DNA of 64,000 nucleotides from Bacteroidales bacterium OttesenSCG-928-B11. GTDB lineage: Bacteria; Bacteroidota; Bacteroidia; Bacteroidales; WCHB1-69. Of this stretch, positions 46,183-57,308 are shown in pieces; position 1 is the stretch's first letter; each line of letters opens with the position of its first letter. The stretch is taken from contig JAJDJJ010000004.1 of NCBI GenBank assembly GCA_030267125.1, positions 1 through 64,000 on the forward strand, in the 5' to 3' direction. Below the pieces are notes generated by a model. That model searched no databases and was not told where the DNA came from. It saw only the letters and a program-made list of their open reading frames with translations. Position numbers and translations under genes: made by a program.

Positions 46183-47266
46183 TTATTTTGCCGCCATCAG
46201 ATACGCCTTGATAAACGCATCAAGGTCGCCATCCATAACAGCATTCACATTGGATGTTTCGTGTTGAGTACGAAGGTCTTTGACCAACTTATACGGGTGC
46301 ATCACATAACTACGGATCTGCGACCCCCACTCTATCTTCTTTTTTGAACTTTCAATCTCGGATATCTTTTCCCGTTTTTTCTCCAACTCGATCTGATAGA
46401 GTCTTGATTTTAACATCTGCATTGCCTTTTCGCGGTTTTGCAGCTGGGAGCGCGTCTCTTGACACTCTACCACAATTCCCGACGGAGCATGGTGCAAACG
46501 CACCGCTGTTTCCACCTTATTCACATTCTGTCCGCCCGGCCCACTCGACCGGTAAGTATCCCACGAAATGTCTGCCGGATTAACCACGATTTCAATATCG
46601 TCATTGATAATGGGATAGGCATATACAGAGGCGAAAGAGGTATGTCTGCGGTTGGCAGAATCGAACGGCGAAAGACGCACCAAACGATGCACGCCGTTTT
46701 CACTTTTCAGGTTGCCGTAACCGTATGCACCATCCAACTCGATTGTTGCGGATTTCACACCGGCCACATCGCCCTCTTGTTGATCTAATATTTTAATATT
46801 GAATTTATTCCGTTCCCCCCATCGGACGTACATACGCATCAACATCTCTGCCCAATCGCAACTTTCGGTGCCACCGGCGCCCGAATTGATGGTCAGAATC
46901 ACACCCAGTCTGTCTTCCTCTTCGCGCATCATATTACGGAACTCCAACTTCTCTATCTTCTTCAAGCTTTTCTGATAAAGCTCGTCCACCTCACCTTCAT
47001 CACCCTCCCCGGCTTGCAGGAATTCGAACATTATCGACAGGTCTTCAAAACTGGCTGCCGCTTGATCATACTCATCTACCCAGGATTTAATAAAACTGAT
47101 CTCTTTTAACAATTTTTCCGCCGTTTTCGAATCGTTCCAAAAATCATCCCGATGGGAAATCTCTTCTTTCGCCTTTATCTCTTCTGATTTCTTATCGATG
47201 TCAAAGGAACCTCCTTAGCTCACCGAGCCTTTTAGCCATGTCTTTGATCTGGTCTTGTAATATCAT
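46183..47266 (-). CDS. prfB: Peptide chain release factor 2 with programmed +1 frameshift
   Basis: Minus-strand ATG at 47266: [21 protein letters not shown] then TGA (47203-47201) in CTAAGGAGGTTCCTTTGAC; +1 frame gives [24 protein letters not shown]..., in frame with the GGQ-containing ORF ('[18 protein letters not shown]'). Confidence 0.96.
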
Positions 47267-47273
47267 CTTGCTT

Positions 47274-47753
47274 CTATTTTATTATTGATTCATCACCTAT
47301 TTCTTTGACCATTGCTTCGCAATGTCGGAAGATAAAATCTCTTTCAAATCCCTTGCTCTCTAAAAAACGATATATCTTTGTAAAGTCACGGTCTTCTATC
47401 CTGTTCATCCGCAACCACTTTTCAATATGCTTTCGACAAGCATCTTTGTATGTGTTTTCAGAAATCGTACTGATTACTTGACTGACAATAGATGAGGAAA
47501 TTCCTTTTTGAAAAAGTTGACTCCTCAACTTCAATCTCCCCCACCCTTTCAAGCGCAGTTTGCTTTGCACATAATTTTCCGCAAAACGCTGGTCGTCGAT
47601 AAAACGTTCATCGACTAAGTATTGGATGATCTTCTCTTCATCCACATTCTCCATTTTCAACGATGCGATTTTGTCTCTCACCTCCCCTTCCGATCGATCT
47701 TGATAGGCGCAAAACCTCATCATCTTACTCAAAACCTCTTGCTGGGATTTCAT
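47274..47753 (-). CDS. recX: Regulatory protein RecX
   Basis: 'RFCAYQDRSEGEVRDKIASL...IIQYLVDERFIDDQRFAENYVQSKLRLKGWGRLKLRSQLFQKGI'. Confidence 0.93.
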   Translation of the reverse strand: MKSQQEVLSKMMRFCAYQDRSEGEVRDKIASLKMENVDEEKIIQYLVDERFIDDQRFAENYVQSKLRLKGWGRLKLRSQLFQKGISSSIVSQVISTISENTYKDACRKHIEKWLRMNRIEDRDFTKIYRFLESKGFERDFIFRHCEAMVKEIGDESIIK

Positions 47754-52194: not shown

Positions 52195-52323
52195 CTAAGC
52201 AATCGCATTTAAATTTCCAAAAGGCACCAACTTGTCGGAGCGAACCACGCGGGATAAGGGCTGAAAAATCCTCGCTCGAAGATAATTTTCCAGAAAGTTT
52301 AACGCATTTGCAGATAAAGCCAT
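52195..52323 (-). CDS. Possible 42-aa orphan small protein, or gene remnant
   Basis: MALSANALNFLENYLRARIFQPLSRVVRSDKLVPFGNLNAIA* read from the internal ATG of the 60-aa ORF; family not recognised. Confidence 0.35.
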   Translation of the reverse strand: MALSANALNFLENYLRARIFQPLSRVVRSDKLVPFGNLNAIA

Positions 52324-52343
52324 TGTTATATTAAAGAAAGTTT

Positions 52344-52351
52344 TATTTTTG
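52344..52351 (+). promoter_or_regulatory. -7-like box TATTTTTG of the putative met operon promoter
   Basis: Matches TAnnTTTG; ATTG lies 18 nt upstream (52322-52325); implied TSS near 52355-52358. Confidence 0.5.
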
Positions 52352-52369
52352 CCGCGATGATAAAGACAA

Positions 52370-52425
52370 GCACACATAATCTTCTGATTTCTATTACGGG
52401 CAACAACTCCGTTGTTTCTGTGTGC
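52370..52425 (+). promoter_or_regulatory. Leader stem GCACACA (52370-52376) / TGTGTGC (52419-52425) enclosing hairpin AACAAC-TCC-GTTGTT (52402-52416)
   Basis: Exact complementarity of 7-bp outer and 6-bp inner stems. Confidence 0.6.
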
Positions 52426-52488
52426 ATGGTTTCTCTAATGGAAATGTGTATGCGAATGCATCGCAAGATGCATTTATTTTATTCGTAG
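52426..52488 (+). CDS. Candidate Met-rich leader peptide MVSLMEMCMRMHRKMHLFYS (the frame also opens at ATG 52357)
   Basis: Six Met codons in 20; stop TAG immediately before hairpins and T7; upstream of metY-metX-thrA. Confidence 0.65.
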   Translation: MVSLMEMCMRMHRKMHLFYS

Positions 52489-52505
52489 CCTCCTACGTAG
52501 AGGCT

Positions 52506-52526
52506 GGTCTAAGAAGACCTTTTTTT
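52506..52526 (+). terminator. Candidate attenuator: GGTCT-AAGA-AGACC followed by T7, directly preceded by hairpin AGCCTC-CTACGTA-GAGGCT (52487-52505)
   Basis: Arms 52506-52510 and 52515-52519 exact; T run 52520-52526; about 40 nt before metY. Confidence 0.65.
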
Positions 52527-52565
52527 CGTTAATCATTATTTCCAAATTTTAAAATCATTATTATC

Positions 52566-53843
52566 ATGTCTGAATTTCTTAATTTCGAGACCTTACAGGT
52601 CCACGCCGGTCGTTTCCGCGACCAGTTTGGCGCATGCGCCACCCCCATTCATCAAACCGCGGCATATCTATTCAACAGTACTCAACACGCCGCAGACCTC
52701 TTCCAATTGGATGTGGAGGGCCATATCTATACGCGGCTTTCCAACCCGACGACGGATGTGTTTGAAAAACGTATTGCCGCTTTAGAGGGAGGAGTGGCAG
52801 CCGTAGCCGTATCCTCCGGTCAAGCATCGCAATTTTTAACATTCCAAAATATAGCCGGACAAGGCGACAACATCGTCACTTCAGCATCTTTGTATGGCGG
52901 AACATATAATCAGTTTAGAGTAAGTTATCAAAACCTCGGACTTACTTTCCGGTTCGTACAAGGGCGAGGAGTCGAGGATTATGAACGCTTGATCGACGAG
53001 CGTACTAAAGCGATCTTCGTAGAGAGTATCGGCAATTCAGATTTCTACATCCCCGATTTCGACGCTCTTTCGGAACTTGCGACCAAATACAACATCCCAC
53101 TTGTCGTAGACAATACTTTCGGGGCAAGCGGCTACCTATTCCGCCCCTTCGAGCATGGTGCGAATATTGTCACCCACGCCGCCACCAAATGGATTGGAGG
53201 ACATGGGAACGCTATCGCCGGAGTGATTGTAGATGGGGGCAATTTCGATTGGGGCAACGGGAAATTCCCCAGTTTCACCGAACCGTGCGATTCTTATAAC
53301 GGACTCGTTTTTTGGAAAAAATTCGCTCGGGCAGCCTTTGCGGTCAGAGCGCGTACATTGGGTCTACGCGACTGGGGATGCTGCCTAAGCCCTGCGAATG
53401 CTTTTTTGCTGCTGCAAGGTGTGGAAACTCTTTCGCTCCGGATGGAACGAATGATGGACAACACCCTGGAGCTGGCAAAATGGCTTTCCGTTCACCCCAA
53501 AGTAGAATCGGTCAACTACCCCGGACTCAAAACCAGCCCTAATTATGCGAATGCCAAAAAATATCTAAAAAATGGATTTGGCGGCGTGCTTACTTTCACA
53601 GTAAAAGGCGATAAAAAAGCCACTTCCAAAGTTGTGGAAGATTTGGAATTGATCACCCACCTAGTCAATGTGGGCGACAATAAGACACTGATTGCGCACC
53701 CGGCAAGCACAACGCATGGCCAACTGAGCGATGAGGCTCTTGCCGCTGCCGGAATCGGAGCAGGCACTTTACGCTTAGCGGTCGGGATAGAACACATTGA
53801 CGATCTGAAAACCGATTTGAATAACGCATTAAATAGGATATAA
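52566..53843 (+). CDS. metY: O-acetylhomoserine aminocarboxypropyltransferase/sulfhydrylase
   Basis: 'FETLQVHAGRFRDQFGACATPIHQTAAYLFNSTQHAADLF', 'GEKRIAALEGG'-like PLP fold, 'THAATKWIGGHGNAIAGVIVDGG'. Confidence 0.94.
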   Translation: MSEFLNFETLQVHAGRFRDQFGACATPIHQTAAYLFNSTQHAADLFQLDVEGHIYTRLSNPTTDVFEKRIAALEGGVAAVAVSSGQASQFLTFQNIAGQGDNIVTSASLYGGTYNQFRVSYQNLGLTFRFVQGRGVEDYERLIDERTKAIFVESIGNSDFYIPDFDALSELATKYNIPLVVDNTFGASGYLFRPFEHGANIVTHAATKWIGGHGNAIAGVIVDGGNFDWGNGKFPSFTEPCDSYNGLVFWKKFARAAFAVRARTLGLRDWGCCLSPANAFLLLQGVETLSLRMERMMDNTLELAKWLSVHPKVESVNYPGLKTSPNYANAKKYLKNGFGGVLTFTVKGDKKATSKVVEDLELITHLVNVGDNKTLIAHPASTTHGQLSDEALAAAGIGAGTLRLAVGIEHIDDLKTDLNNALNRI

Positions 53844-53848
53844 TACGT

Positions 53849-54865
53849 ATGAAAAAGAAAAGCATCTGTTTGAAAGAAAATTTCCCACTCGAAAGCGGAG
53901 AATATCTCCCCGAAATAGAAATTTGCTATCATACCTCGAGTGATTCTCCGAAAAACAAGAACGTAATATGGCTATGTCACGCTCTTACAGCCAACTCCGA
54001 TCCATCGGAGTGGTGGCCGGAGTTAGTGGGCAGAGGAAAATTATTCGACACGGAAAAGCATTTTGTTGTTTGCGCCAATATCTTAGCCTCGTGCTATGGG
54101 TCAACCGGCCCGCAGTCTATCAATCCGAAAACAGGAACTCCTTATCTGCTTGGATTCCCAACCATCTCCGTACGCGACATGGTGCGGGCTCACGAACTGC
54201 TGGCAAGGCATTTGAATATCGACCGGATCAACCTGCTTGTCGGCGGTTCCAGCGGCGGTTTCCAAGCTATTGAATGGGCAGTGTCAAATCCCGATAGCAT
54301 AAAAAATCTATGCCTATTGGCTTGCAATGCCCGGATAAGTCCTTGGGGAAGCGCTTTCAACGAATCGCAACGCATGGCTTTACGCACTGATCCTACATTC
54401 GATGAACAAGCTCCCGGCAATGCCGGGAGCAAAGGGTTAGCGTGCGCGCGGTCGATTGCCCTATTGTCCTACCGTTCTCATGAAGGTTACGAACGCACTC
54501 AGAACGAAGAAAGCCCGGATTGCTTCATGGCCAACAGGGCATTAACTTACCAACGTTACCAAGGGGAAAAGCTCGCCAATCGATTTAACGCCTACAGTTA
54601 CTATCACCTCACGCAGAGTCTAGACACGCACAATGTCGGGCGCGGGCGTGGAGGAGTGGAGGAAGCCCTTGCGAAGGTGAAAGCAAAGACACTTTGCATA
54701 GCCGTCTCCGGCGATGTTTTATTTCCCGCATCGGAAGTAGAATATTTAGCCCGCCACATTCCCAACGCAAATTACGAGCTAATTGATTCCTTGTATGGGC
54801 ATGACGGCTTCCTGCTGGAGGCCGAACAAATAAAAAATCACATAACTAAACATTTTAATTTATAA
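53849..54865 (+). CDS. metX: Homoserine O-acetyltransferase
   Basis: 'NVIWLCHALTANSDPSEWW', 'GSTGPQSINPKTGTPY', 'GGSSGGFQAIEWAV', 'YGHDGFLLE'. Confidence 0.93.
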   Translation: MKKKSICLKENFPLESGEYLPEIEICYHTSSDSPKNKNVIWLCHALTANSDPSEWWPELVGRGKLFDTEKHFVVCANILASCYGSTGPQSINPKTGTPYLLGFPTISVRDMVRAHELLARHLNIDRINLLVGGSSGGFQAIEWAVSNPDSIKNLCLLACNARISPWGSAFNESQRMALRTDPTFDEQAPGNAGSKGLACARSIALLSYRSHEGYERTQNEESPDCFMANRALTYQRYQGEKLANRFNAYSYYHLTQSLDTHNVGRGRGGVEEALAKVKAKTLCIAVSGDVLFPASEVEYLARHIPNANYELIDSLYGHDGFLLEAEQIKNHITKHFNL

Positions 54866-54869
54866 CAAG

Positions 54870-57308
54870 ATGCAAGTATTGAAATTCGGAGGCTCCTCGG
54901 TTGGAGGAGCCGAAAGCATAAACAAAGTCATAAACATCGTAAACAAAGCCACAAAGAAGGACCGCACGGTAGTGGTTGCTTCAGCTATAAACGGATGCAC
55001 CGATACGCTTACAGAAATTGCCAAACAGGCAGCGCAAGGAGACATTCTTTACCAAGAGGCGTTATCCTCACTCAAAGAGAAGCACTTATCCATCATCTCC
55101 TCCATCATTCCCACTGATTTCAGAAAATCAGCGGGAGAAAGTATCGGAAATTTATTTGAGGAGCTGGCATTATCCGTGCAGAGCGTGTACCATCTCCGTG
55201 AATTAAGCCTTTCGGTCTGCGACAGAATCGTCAGTTTTGGAGAATTATTCTCTACCGCCATATTGGTTGAAAAATTCCGCTCCTCGGGAGTACAATGCAA
55301 ATGGATCGATACGCGTCAAATCATACGGACGGCGTGGAAACGAGGAAAAAACACGGTGGACATGGAAACGACCATCCATAACGTGCAAGCCGCGTTAAAA
55401 GAAAAAACCACAAGATTGTATATTGCGCCGGGGTTCATTGCCGCGAATGAATCCGGGGCGACGACTACTCTGGGGAGGGGTGGCTCCGACTACACCGCAG
55501 CGATCATAGCATCGGCGATAGAAGCGCGCATATTGGAGATTTGGACGGATGTGGACGGCATGATGACCGCCGACCCGCGCATCGTTCCCGATGCCCGCAC
55601 TATCAGCCATATCTCTTACAAAGAAGCCTTGGAACTCTCCCACTTCGGCGCTAAGGTAATTTTCCCATCTACCATACAACCTGCAGTAAGAAGCAATATC
55701 CCCATCTTGGTTAAGAACACATTTGCCCCCAATAACGCCGGCACGCGTATAGAAAAGAACCCACCGGAGGCCTCAAACCGGATAAAAGGATTGTCGGGAA
55801 CCAAACGGATCGCCTTGCTCTCTATGGAGGGGAACGGGATGATCGGCGCACCGGGATATTCCAGTCGCCTATTTGATGTGCTTGCCCGCAACAACATTGA
55901 CATCATCCTGATTACGCAAGCCTCGTCTGTGCACACCATGTTGATCGCCATAGCAGAAGAGGATGGGCAAAAAGCCAAAGAAGTGGCCGATGAGGTTTTC
56001 GCTTATGAAATATCTCAAAAAACAGTTGAGCCGCTTAAAGTAGAAACAGGCTACGCCATTATCAGCTTAGTGGGAAATGATATGGCGAATCAGTCGGGAA
56101 CAGCGGCAAGAATGTTCGAGGCTACCGGCGGACGCGGCATCAATATACGAGCCATAGCTAATGGATCGTCGGAAAAAAACGTATCCACGGTGGTAGCTTC
56201 CGCCGATTTTGAAGAAGCCATCAGGGCGATACACGGCGAATTTTTTGTTAAGCCGGTTAATCATATCAATTTATTCATTGCCGGTTATGGCAATGTTGGG
56301 AAAAGCTTGGTCGAGGTAATTCATCGCCGTCGAAAAGTAATTGAAATAGAGATGAATCTTTCATTAAATATCATCGGAATATGCAATAGTAAAAAAACAA
56401 TAATCAATCCGACAGGACTTGACATAGAGACGATCAAGGGGATCTCTTCCTTCTCTAAAAAAGAGGCTCGAAACGATCCGGCAGCTTTTGTAGAGAAAAT
56501 ATCCTCTTTGGGATTAAAAAATAGCGTTTTTGTCGATTGCACCTCTAGTTTCGAAGTATCTGCTTTGTACCGCGATATATTATCCAGGAAGATAAATATC
56601 GTGACTTGTAACAAGATAGCCAATTCGTCCGATATGGATTTTTACAAAAGCATTCATTGCGAGGCCAAACAAAACGATGTTTTCTTCCGCTATGAAACCA
56701 ATGTTGGAGCTGGGCTTCCTGTCATTTCCACAATAAAGCAGATACTAAACAGCGGGGATAACATCAATCGAATAGAGGCGACTCTTTCCGGTTCGCTGAA
56801 TTATATCTTCAGTAAATACGATGGCTCTTCTTCCTTCGCCTCGATTGTCCGGGAGGCGCAAAATCTAGGGTATACTGAACCGGATCCCCGCACCGACCTT
56901 TGCGGGCTGGACTTGCAACGCAAAGCGCTCATCTTGGTTCGCGAACTTGGATTGGAAGCGGAAATGAAAGACATACAAATGACTCCTTTCCTACCTGAGC
57001 GGTTACTTAACGGATCGGTCGATGAATTTTATAACGCAATGGAAAAGATGGAAAATTATTTCCGCCAGCTCTATATCAAAGCGGCAAACGACAAAAAGCG
57101 AATCGCTTTCGGTGTAGATATAGCCGAAAATATCACCCAAGTAGGAGTTGGCAAATTCGACCTGTCTCATCCTTTCACCAGCTCTACCGGGACGGATTGC
57201 GTAATTGTCATATACAGCGATTTCTATCCGAATGGATTAAGAATAGTCGGGGCAGGAGCCGGAACATGGCAAACCGCCTCGGGATTGTTACACAATATTA
57301 TCCAATGA
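54870..57308 (+). CDS. thrA: Bifunctional aspartate kinase/homoserine dehydrogenase
   Basis: 'MQVLKFGGSSVGGAESI', 'LGRGGSDYTAAIIASAIEA', ACT region, 'NVGAGLPVISTIKQILNSGDNI', 'GYTEPDPRTDLCGLDLQRKALIL'. Confidence 0.95.
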   Translation: MQVLKFGGSSVGGAESINKVINIVNKATKKDRTVVVASAINGCTDTLTEIAKQAAQGDILYQEALSSLKEKHLSIISSIIPTDFRKSAGESIGNLFEELALSVQSVYHLRELSLSVCDRIVSFGELFSTAILVEKFRSSGVQCKWIDTRQIIRTAWKRGKNTVDMETTIHNVQAALKEKTTRLYIAPGFIAANESGATTTLGRGGSDYTAAIIASAIEARILEIWTDVDGMMTADPRIVPDARTISHISYKEALELSHFGAKVIFPSTIQPAVRSNIPILVKNTFAPNNAGTRIEKNPPEASNRIKGLSGTKRIALLSMEGNGMIGAPGYSSRLFDVLARNNIDIILITQASSVHTMLIAIAEEDGQKAKEVADEVFAYEISQKTVEPLKVETGYAIISLVGNDMANQSGTAARMFEATGGRGINIRAIANGSSEKNVSTVVASADFEEAIRAIHGEFFVKPVNHINLFIAGYGNVGKSLVEVIHRRRKVIEIEMNLSLNIIGICNSKKTIINPTGLDIETIKGISSFSKKEARNDPAAFVEKISSLGLKNSVFVDCTSSFEVSALYRDILSRKINIVTCNKIANSSDMDFYKSIHCEAKQNDVFFRYETNVGAGLPVISTIKQILNSGDNINRIEATLSGSLNYIFSKYDGSSSFASIVREAQNLGYTEPDPRTDLCGLDLQRKALILVRELGLEAEMKDIQMTPFLPERLLNGSVDEFYNAMEKMENYFRQLYIKAANDKKRIAFGVDIAENITQVGVGKFDLSHPFTSSTGTDCVIVIYSDFYPNGLRIVGAGAGTWQTASGLLHNIIQ

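Follow-up and report, generated by a model that had tools for sequence, protein, structure and literature searches.

A putative Met-coded leader peptide upstream of metY-metX-thrA and its relatives among Met/Cys-coded upstream ORFs of Bacteroidota

The metY-metX-thrA locus and its leader

The window analyzed here, a 64,000-nt stretch of DNA from Bacteroidales bacterium OttesenSCG-928-B11, carries three plus-strand genes of the methionine branch. These encode the O-acetylhomoserine sulfhydrylase MetY (52566–53843, with its start ATG at 52566; family model TIGR01326), a member of the homoserine O-acetyltransferase family, MetX (53849–54865; TIGR01392, with a score below the model cut-off), and the bifunctional aspartate kinase/homoserine dehydrogenase ThrA (54870–57308; NF006959). 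The matches agree with the gene assignments of the original prediction, which had been made from the sequence alone and had proposed a Met leader-peptide attenuator upstream of metY. A promoter-like site of the Bacteroidota type is predicted on the plus strand (52323–52351). It comprises a TTG (52323–52325) located 18 nt upstream of the −7-like box TATTTTTG (52344–52351), which had already been pointed out and fits TAnnTTTG; the same motif is also found upstream of the uORF in several relatives.

Direct reading reveals an upstream ORF (uORF) of 43 codons on the plus strand, MIKTSTHNLLISITGNNSVVSVCMVSLMEMCMRMHRKMHLFYS* (52357–52488; the asterisk denotes the stop codon), which contains seven Met as well as two isolated Cys and no Cys run, and has counterparts before metY elsewhere. 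The Met-rich short ORF described previously, ATGGTTTCTCTAATGGAAATGTGTATGCGAATGCATCGCAAGATGCATTTATTTTATTCGTAG (52426–52488; 20 codons, six Met), is present and lies in frame with the ATG at 52357; its six Met codons form a run at 52426–52470 (plus strand). We prefer the 43-aa frame as the probable uORF, because uORFs in relatives are similar in length. Dinucleotide shuffling of the 450-nt window leader (5000 shuffles) never produced an ORF holding five or more non-initiator Met within 12 codons, which puts the Met cluster well beyond chance. The uORF peptide matched none of the Pfam and NCBIfam models, and an Rfam search of the window matched no family, SAM-I (RF00162) included.

The window leader folds more stably than its shuffles (z = −2.8), and four elements could be placed on the plus strand. 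The first element, helix H0 (52370–52425), is predicted by folding to pair GCACACA (52370–52376) with TGTGTGC (52419–52425), which joins the uORF start to the stretch preceding the Met run. Similar helices are found in relatives with long uORFs, where the sequences differ between species; one compensatory pair change distinguishes the leaders L034 and L035, and the mean z-value over 12 leaders, some of them mutually related, was −1.3. The second element, H2 (52455–52474), is a perfect hairpin, AATGCATC-GCAA-GATGCATT, which lies within the Met codons and thus inside the uORF. The third and fourth elements had been described before and were found as described: hairpin P (AGCCTC-CTACGTA-GAGGCT; 52487–52505) overlaps the uORF stop codon and adjoins, without overlap, a weak intrinsic-terminator-like site (52506–52526) that is formed by GGTCT-AAGA-AGACC (52506–52519) and T7 (52520–52526). 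H2, H0, and the core ATGCGAATG (52450–52458, plus strand), which encodes Met-Arg(CGA)-Met and is conserved in Bacteroidota leaders, had been missed.

Met- and Cys-coded uORFs in Bacteroidota

We collected MetY homologues from Bacteroidota genomes and kept leaders of at least 300 nt (n = 134). Of the 134 metY leaders, 41 have a uORF that starts with ATG and packs six or more Met/Cys into 12 codons, compared to 0.07 on average in shuffled leaders and one on the antisense strand, and Cys plus Met showed the top enrichment among 190 residue pairs. Their ends include MRMHRQMHR* (Bacteroidales), MMMCMMMTR* (Carboxylicivirga), MCMCCCMCN* (Pararhodonellum), CCMCCCCCCC* (Cyclobacteriaceae), and MCCCMCCCMC* (a Flavobacteriales MAG), and 80% of the Met/Cys positions fall into the last third of the uORF. 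Cys runs use both codons (177 TGT, 100 TGC), and differences between related uORFs show a modest bias toward the third codon position (105 vs. 68 and 68, with some pairs doubtful). Both observations point to translation of the uORFs.

A search of 249 Bacteroidota genomes for five Cys codons plus stop returned 27 matches. Most of them lie out of frame within other genes, and eight belong to uORFs located upstream of PhyH or sulfur-related genes. The poly-Cys uORFs precede metY, cysH, a gene for a sulfate ABC binding protein, cysS in two genomes, and a PhyH-family dioxygenase gene in three (MRMCCCCCC*), as might be expected of a regulon that senses Cys/Met. The cysS leaders L209 and L210 carry uORFs of 13–14 codons, about half of them Cys, 60 nt before this gene for the Cys-tRNA ligase. 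In the leaders L189, L194, L215, L216, and L217, all from one Bacteroidota class, the MRMCCCCCC* uORF is located ~50 nt before the PhyH-family dioxygenase gene. Genome-wide, the pattern ATGCGAATGYRYYG matched mostly by chance, but one metY leader and three PhyH leaders were among its matches.

With the pattern NTGCGAATG, we found the core ATGCGAATG in 15 metY leaders, two of which are second copies of one locus. The core is in frame with the uORF every time, and no match was found on the other strand. Among the ATG-Arg-ATG triplets of metY leaders, 15 of 17 use CGA and two use CGC. Over 153 leaders, CGAATG occurs 42 times (nine times on the reverse strand) and every other Arg-ATG hexamer four to eight times. 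The longer core ATGCGAATGCATCGCAAGATGC, which covers Met-Arg-Met-His-Arg and the hairpin, also precedes metY or metX in other Bacteroidales. Searching with the longer core and without tying it to metY gave matches in four of 394 Bacteroidales genomes. Besides the window, these were a second metY operon, a metX-thrA operon that lacks metY, and a chance match inside a protein gene. In the family of the metX-thrA genome, 80 genomes yielded 23 matches, compared to two for the reversed control pattern, and most of the 23 are uORFs preceding metY or metX. Variants ending in MRMHL* occur in L265 and L277. In Sphingobacterium, the uORF ends in RMR* in several leaders, again as CGAATGCGN-TAG. The RMR* uORFs of L045, L071, L074, L077, L108, L121, and L147 have conserved nucleotides past the stop codon (CGAATGCGN-TAGTCG), and their CGA...TCG ends look able to pair.

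In the clade of the window, the codons after ATGCGA form hairpin H2 as GCATC-(4 to 7 nt)-GATGC, and three leaders with a wider gap between the arms have gained an inner C-G pair. The 3' arm GATGC was left out of the clade search pattern, yet it is retained in the clade leaders even where a stop codon sits in the loop, which argues for a constraint on the nucleic acid rather than on the peptide. RNAalifold of 24 leaders returned H2 as the only common structure; as both arms are invariant, covariation was not countable. The number of Met codons varies, some clade uORFs having only two Met besides the start. The invariant part is Met-Arg(CGA)-Met-His-Arg/Leu together with an RNA hairpin, so that a tally of Met codons may not capture everything that matters. 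It also raises the question of why CGA is the near-constant Arg codon.

The idea of a Met leader peptide before a Met operon gained support from two sides: other Bacteroidales have homologous Met-coded uORFs in front of metY or metX, and Cys/Met-coded uORFs precede metY across Bacteroidota. With an ATG-started uORF, an in-frame ATGCGAATG, clustered Met/Cys, and a sulfur amino-acid gene downstream, the window uORF belongs to a broad family of Met- and Cys-coded leader peptides. On comparative evidence, this family is real and conserved; it spans several Bacteroidota lineages, including the cultured Sphingobacterium, Pontibacter, and Carboxylicivirga, and seems to be used by many Bacteroidota to control sulfur amino-acid genes.

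Origin of the operon and the SAM-I tandem

At the threshold used, metY was not found in the rest of the family of the window (80 genomes searched), to which the window genome is the exception. In contrast, kbl, a neighbour of the operon, belongs to the native genes of the genus, and three congeners carry it at 85 to 91% identity. In the MetY tree, the window falls within a 20-row clade (support 100/98) of another Bacteroidales family and related MAGs. MRMH[R/L] is present in every readable leader of this clade, and other MetY types from that same family have leaders without it. As the family of the window otherwise lacks metY and the clade leaders share MRMH[R/L], operon and leader appear to have been transferred together, with both the transfer and its direction deduced from these comparisons. 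The coincidence of MetY clade and leader type also counts for the leader-peptide explanation. When the leader was searched for at the DNA level, none of 41 relatives showed a homologous leader; a 27-nt match in G021 was rejected as it lies inside a protein gene. A plasmid search gave no match.

Many metY leaders of Cytophagia, Sphingobacteria, and others have a SAM-I aptamer at their start (RF00162 in all 11 loci tested), and a uORF starts ~8 to 28 nt 3' of it. In Cytophagia and Sphingobacteria, the uORFs behind SAM-I are poly-Cys or RMR versions. Neither the window nor the tested Bacteroidales relatives have SAM-I; in this second set of leaders, the cysH leader L211 alone carries one. Judging from the spacing between aptamer and uORF, the riboswitch may gate translation of the uORF, and SAM-I riboswitches in Bacteroidota may act via an unannotated uORF. 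We tentatively extend this to a phylum-wide two-input control, a possibility to which we give somewhat less than even weight: SAM-I would gate a Cys/Met leader peptide, and in the clade of the window, which lacks the riboswitch, Met-Arg(CGA)-Met-His-Arg and H2 would be the sole sensor. The genes would then open only at low SAM combined with a shortage of Cys- or Met-tRNA, and the sensor of the window clade would possibly be a codon-context or nascent-peptide arrest of an undescribed kind. In L088 (4055–4166), a second SAM-I riboswitch was observed upstream of the one belonging to metY.

Proposed mechanism and relation to known systems

Comparison establishes the uORF with its Met/Cys coding bias, its sulfur-gene targets, and the conserved core with hairpin; what is sensed, that the ribosome stalls, and which way control runs are deduced. 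The window leader is probably a cis-acting, translation-dependent element that senses a shortage of Met or charged Met-tRNA and switches on metY-metX-thrA. A ribosome would translate the 43-codon uORF from 52357 and open helix H0. When Met-tRNA is scarce, it would slow or stall in the Met run near Met-Arg(CGA)-Met, atop H2, whereas with plentiful Met it would get to the stop codon at 52488 and depart. The likeliest readout in the window species would be transcriptional, with stalling allowing the polymerase to pass the weak T7 terminator (52506–52526) and finished uORF translation leading to termination there. We favour termination in the window, given its T7 site and the AU-rich, apparently unstructured stretch that precedes metY, and hypothesize trp-type attenuation at this locus.

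The sensor side of this explanation is well supported; the output side is not. The original prediction had inferred that stalling prevents the terminator, which our folding does not bear out: no antiterminator was found by equilibrium folding. For most of the points from which the RNA was freed, and also when a ribosome masked any one of the internal Met codons, the terminator formed with a probability near 0.95, and a weak pairing of ~52380–52388 with the terminator appeared only if the uORF start was masked. Hairpin P abuts the terminator, a 5-bp hairpin plus T7 that is the sole and weak terminator of the leader. Terminator-like sites are not conserved, occurring in ~5 of 22 leaders of the window clade and in ~6 of 62 Met/Cys uORF leaders of the wider set; several relatives have strong ones (L245, L254, L265, L276, L097, L109, and L139). 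In L097, L109, L139, and L278, from unrelated lineages without SAM-I, a Met/Cys-rich uORF is followed by a strong intrinsic-terminator-like hairpin. Given how rare terminators are in both sets, the conserved unit is uORF, core, and hairpin, with a readout that seems to vary, or to rest on Rho or translation in many species, and relatives seem to use other outputs than the window. Function as a leader peptide is supported overall, and the terminator mechanism is unproven.

The closest rival accepts leader-peptide control as real and places the output in Rho access or in metY translation via a stalled or absent ribosome, the T7 being incidental. It draws on the majority of family leaders that have no terminator after the uORF, on the PhyH leaders with only ~50 AU-rich nt from uORF to gene, and on the actinobacterial Cys leaders, which also lack terminators and for which Rho has been proposed (PMC1262725). 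Set against the hairpin and T7 of the window and the strong terminators of several relatives, we regard it as a serious contender that falls short of an even chance. It is rather unlikely that Met-Arg(CGA)-Met-His-Arg and H2 form a nascent-peptide or codon-context arrest element that answers Met or SAM and not Met-tRNA charging. The near-invariant CGA, the fixed M-R-M-H-R/L order amid variable other Met codons, the H2 arm retained behind a stop codon, and the RMR* endings in Sphingobacterium would suit such an element; however, poly-Cys runs and extra Met codons in the family suggest tRNA sensing, and some uORFs have just seven codons, short of filling the exit tunnel. We consider it improbable that the leader is an unrecognised metabolite-binding RNA with an incidental ORF, as the core is in frame with an ATG-started ORF every time, Cys runs use both synonymous codons, the window has no Rfam match, and the structured part is small with the remainder not conserved, even though H2 and H0 are RNA structures and relatives carry SAM-I aptamers. 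H2 could also be read as a DNA operator for a transcription factor, GCATC...GATGC being an interrupted palindrome; this very improbable reading was set aside since the arms are spaced variably, by 4 to 7 nt, since an inner C-G pair appears at the widest spacings, as expected of a hairpin, and since poly-Cys leaders with ATGCGAATG lack the palindrome. Lone short ORFs are often spurious, but a chance ORF in an ordinary 5' leader is the least credible reading and was set aside given the Met/Cys enrichment over shuffles, the in-frame core, the matches before metY and metX, and the agreement of the MetY clade with its leaders.

Leader-peptide control is a textbook system. The preferred explanation, a translated leader sensing Met or Met-tRNA, shares with the trp, his, and thr attenuators a short uORF in which codons for the regulated amino acid cluster, a hairpin over the control codons, and a terminator-like site before the first gene. 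It differs from them in the use of methionine, in the fixed M-R(CGA)-M-H-R core, in the mutually exclusive antiterminator, which equilibrium folding did not find in the window, and in a terminator that is unconserved in relatives.

In Actinobacteria, Cys-run leader peptides are known that lack conserved terminators, Rho being proposed (PMC1262725; for poly-Cys leaders, see also Canestrari et al. 2020 as cited in PMC9094748). Their uORFs likewise precede sulfur genes, often without a terminator, and have sulfur amino-acid codons in a run close to the stop. These leaders come from another phylum; the window uORF contains Met codons but lacks the Cys run near the stop, which other Bacteroidota do have, and neither the ATGCGAATG core nor the SAM-I tandem is described for the actinobacterial leaders. 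The SAM-I riboswitch (RF00162) controls metY operons and directly precedes the uORF in many metY leaders of the same phylum, but it is missing from the window and the tested Bacteroidales relatives. In M. tuberculosis, a B12 riboswitch and a translated uORF act jointly on the gene downstream in metE and ppe2; ligand and phylum differ from ours, and the abstract is silent on amino-acid codon runs (PMC11260477). A transcriptome paper on B. thetaiotaomicron mentions sORFs that resemble leader peptides within long 5' UTRs but does not name this family (PMC7366714). In the open-licence papers searched, we found no report of a Met leader peptide of this kind, of a Met/Cys leader family or leader-peptide control of sulfur metabolism in Bacteroidota, or of a SAM-I/leader-peptide tandem. 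The Met/Cys leader-peptide family of Bacteroidota is thus apparently undescribed; leader-peptide control as such is long known, and what is newly found here is the version for methionine and Bacteroidota sulfur genes. Elsewhere in the window, prfB (46183–47275, minus strand) carries an ordinary RF2 programmed frameshift site, AGGAGGTTCCTTTGAC.
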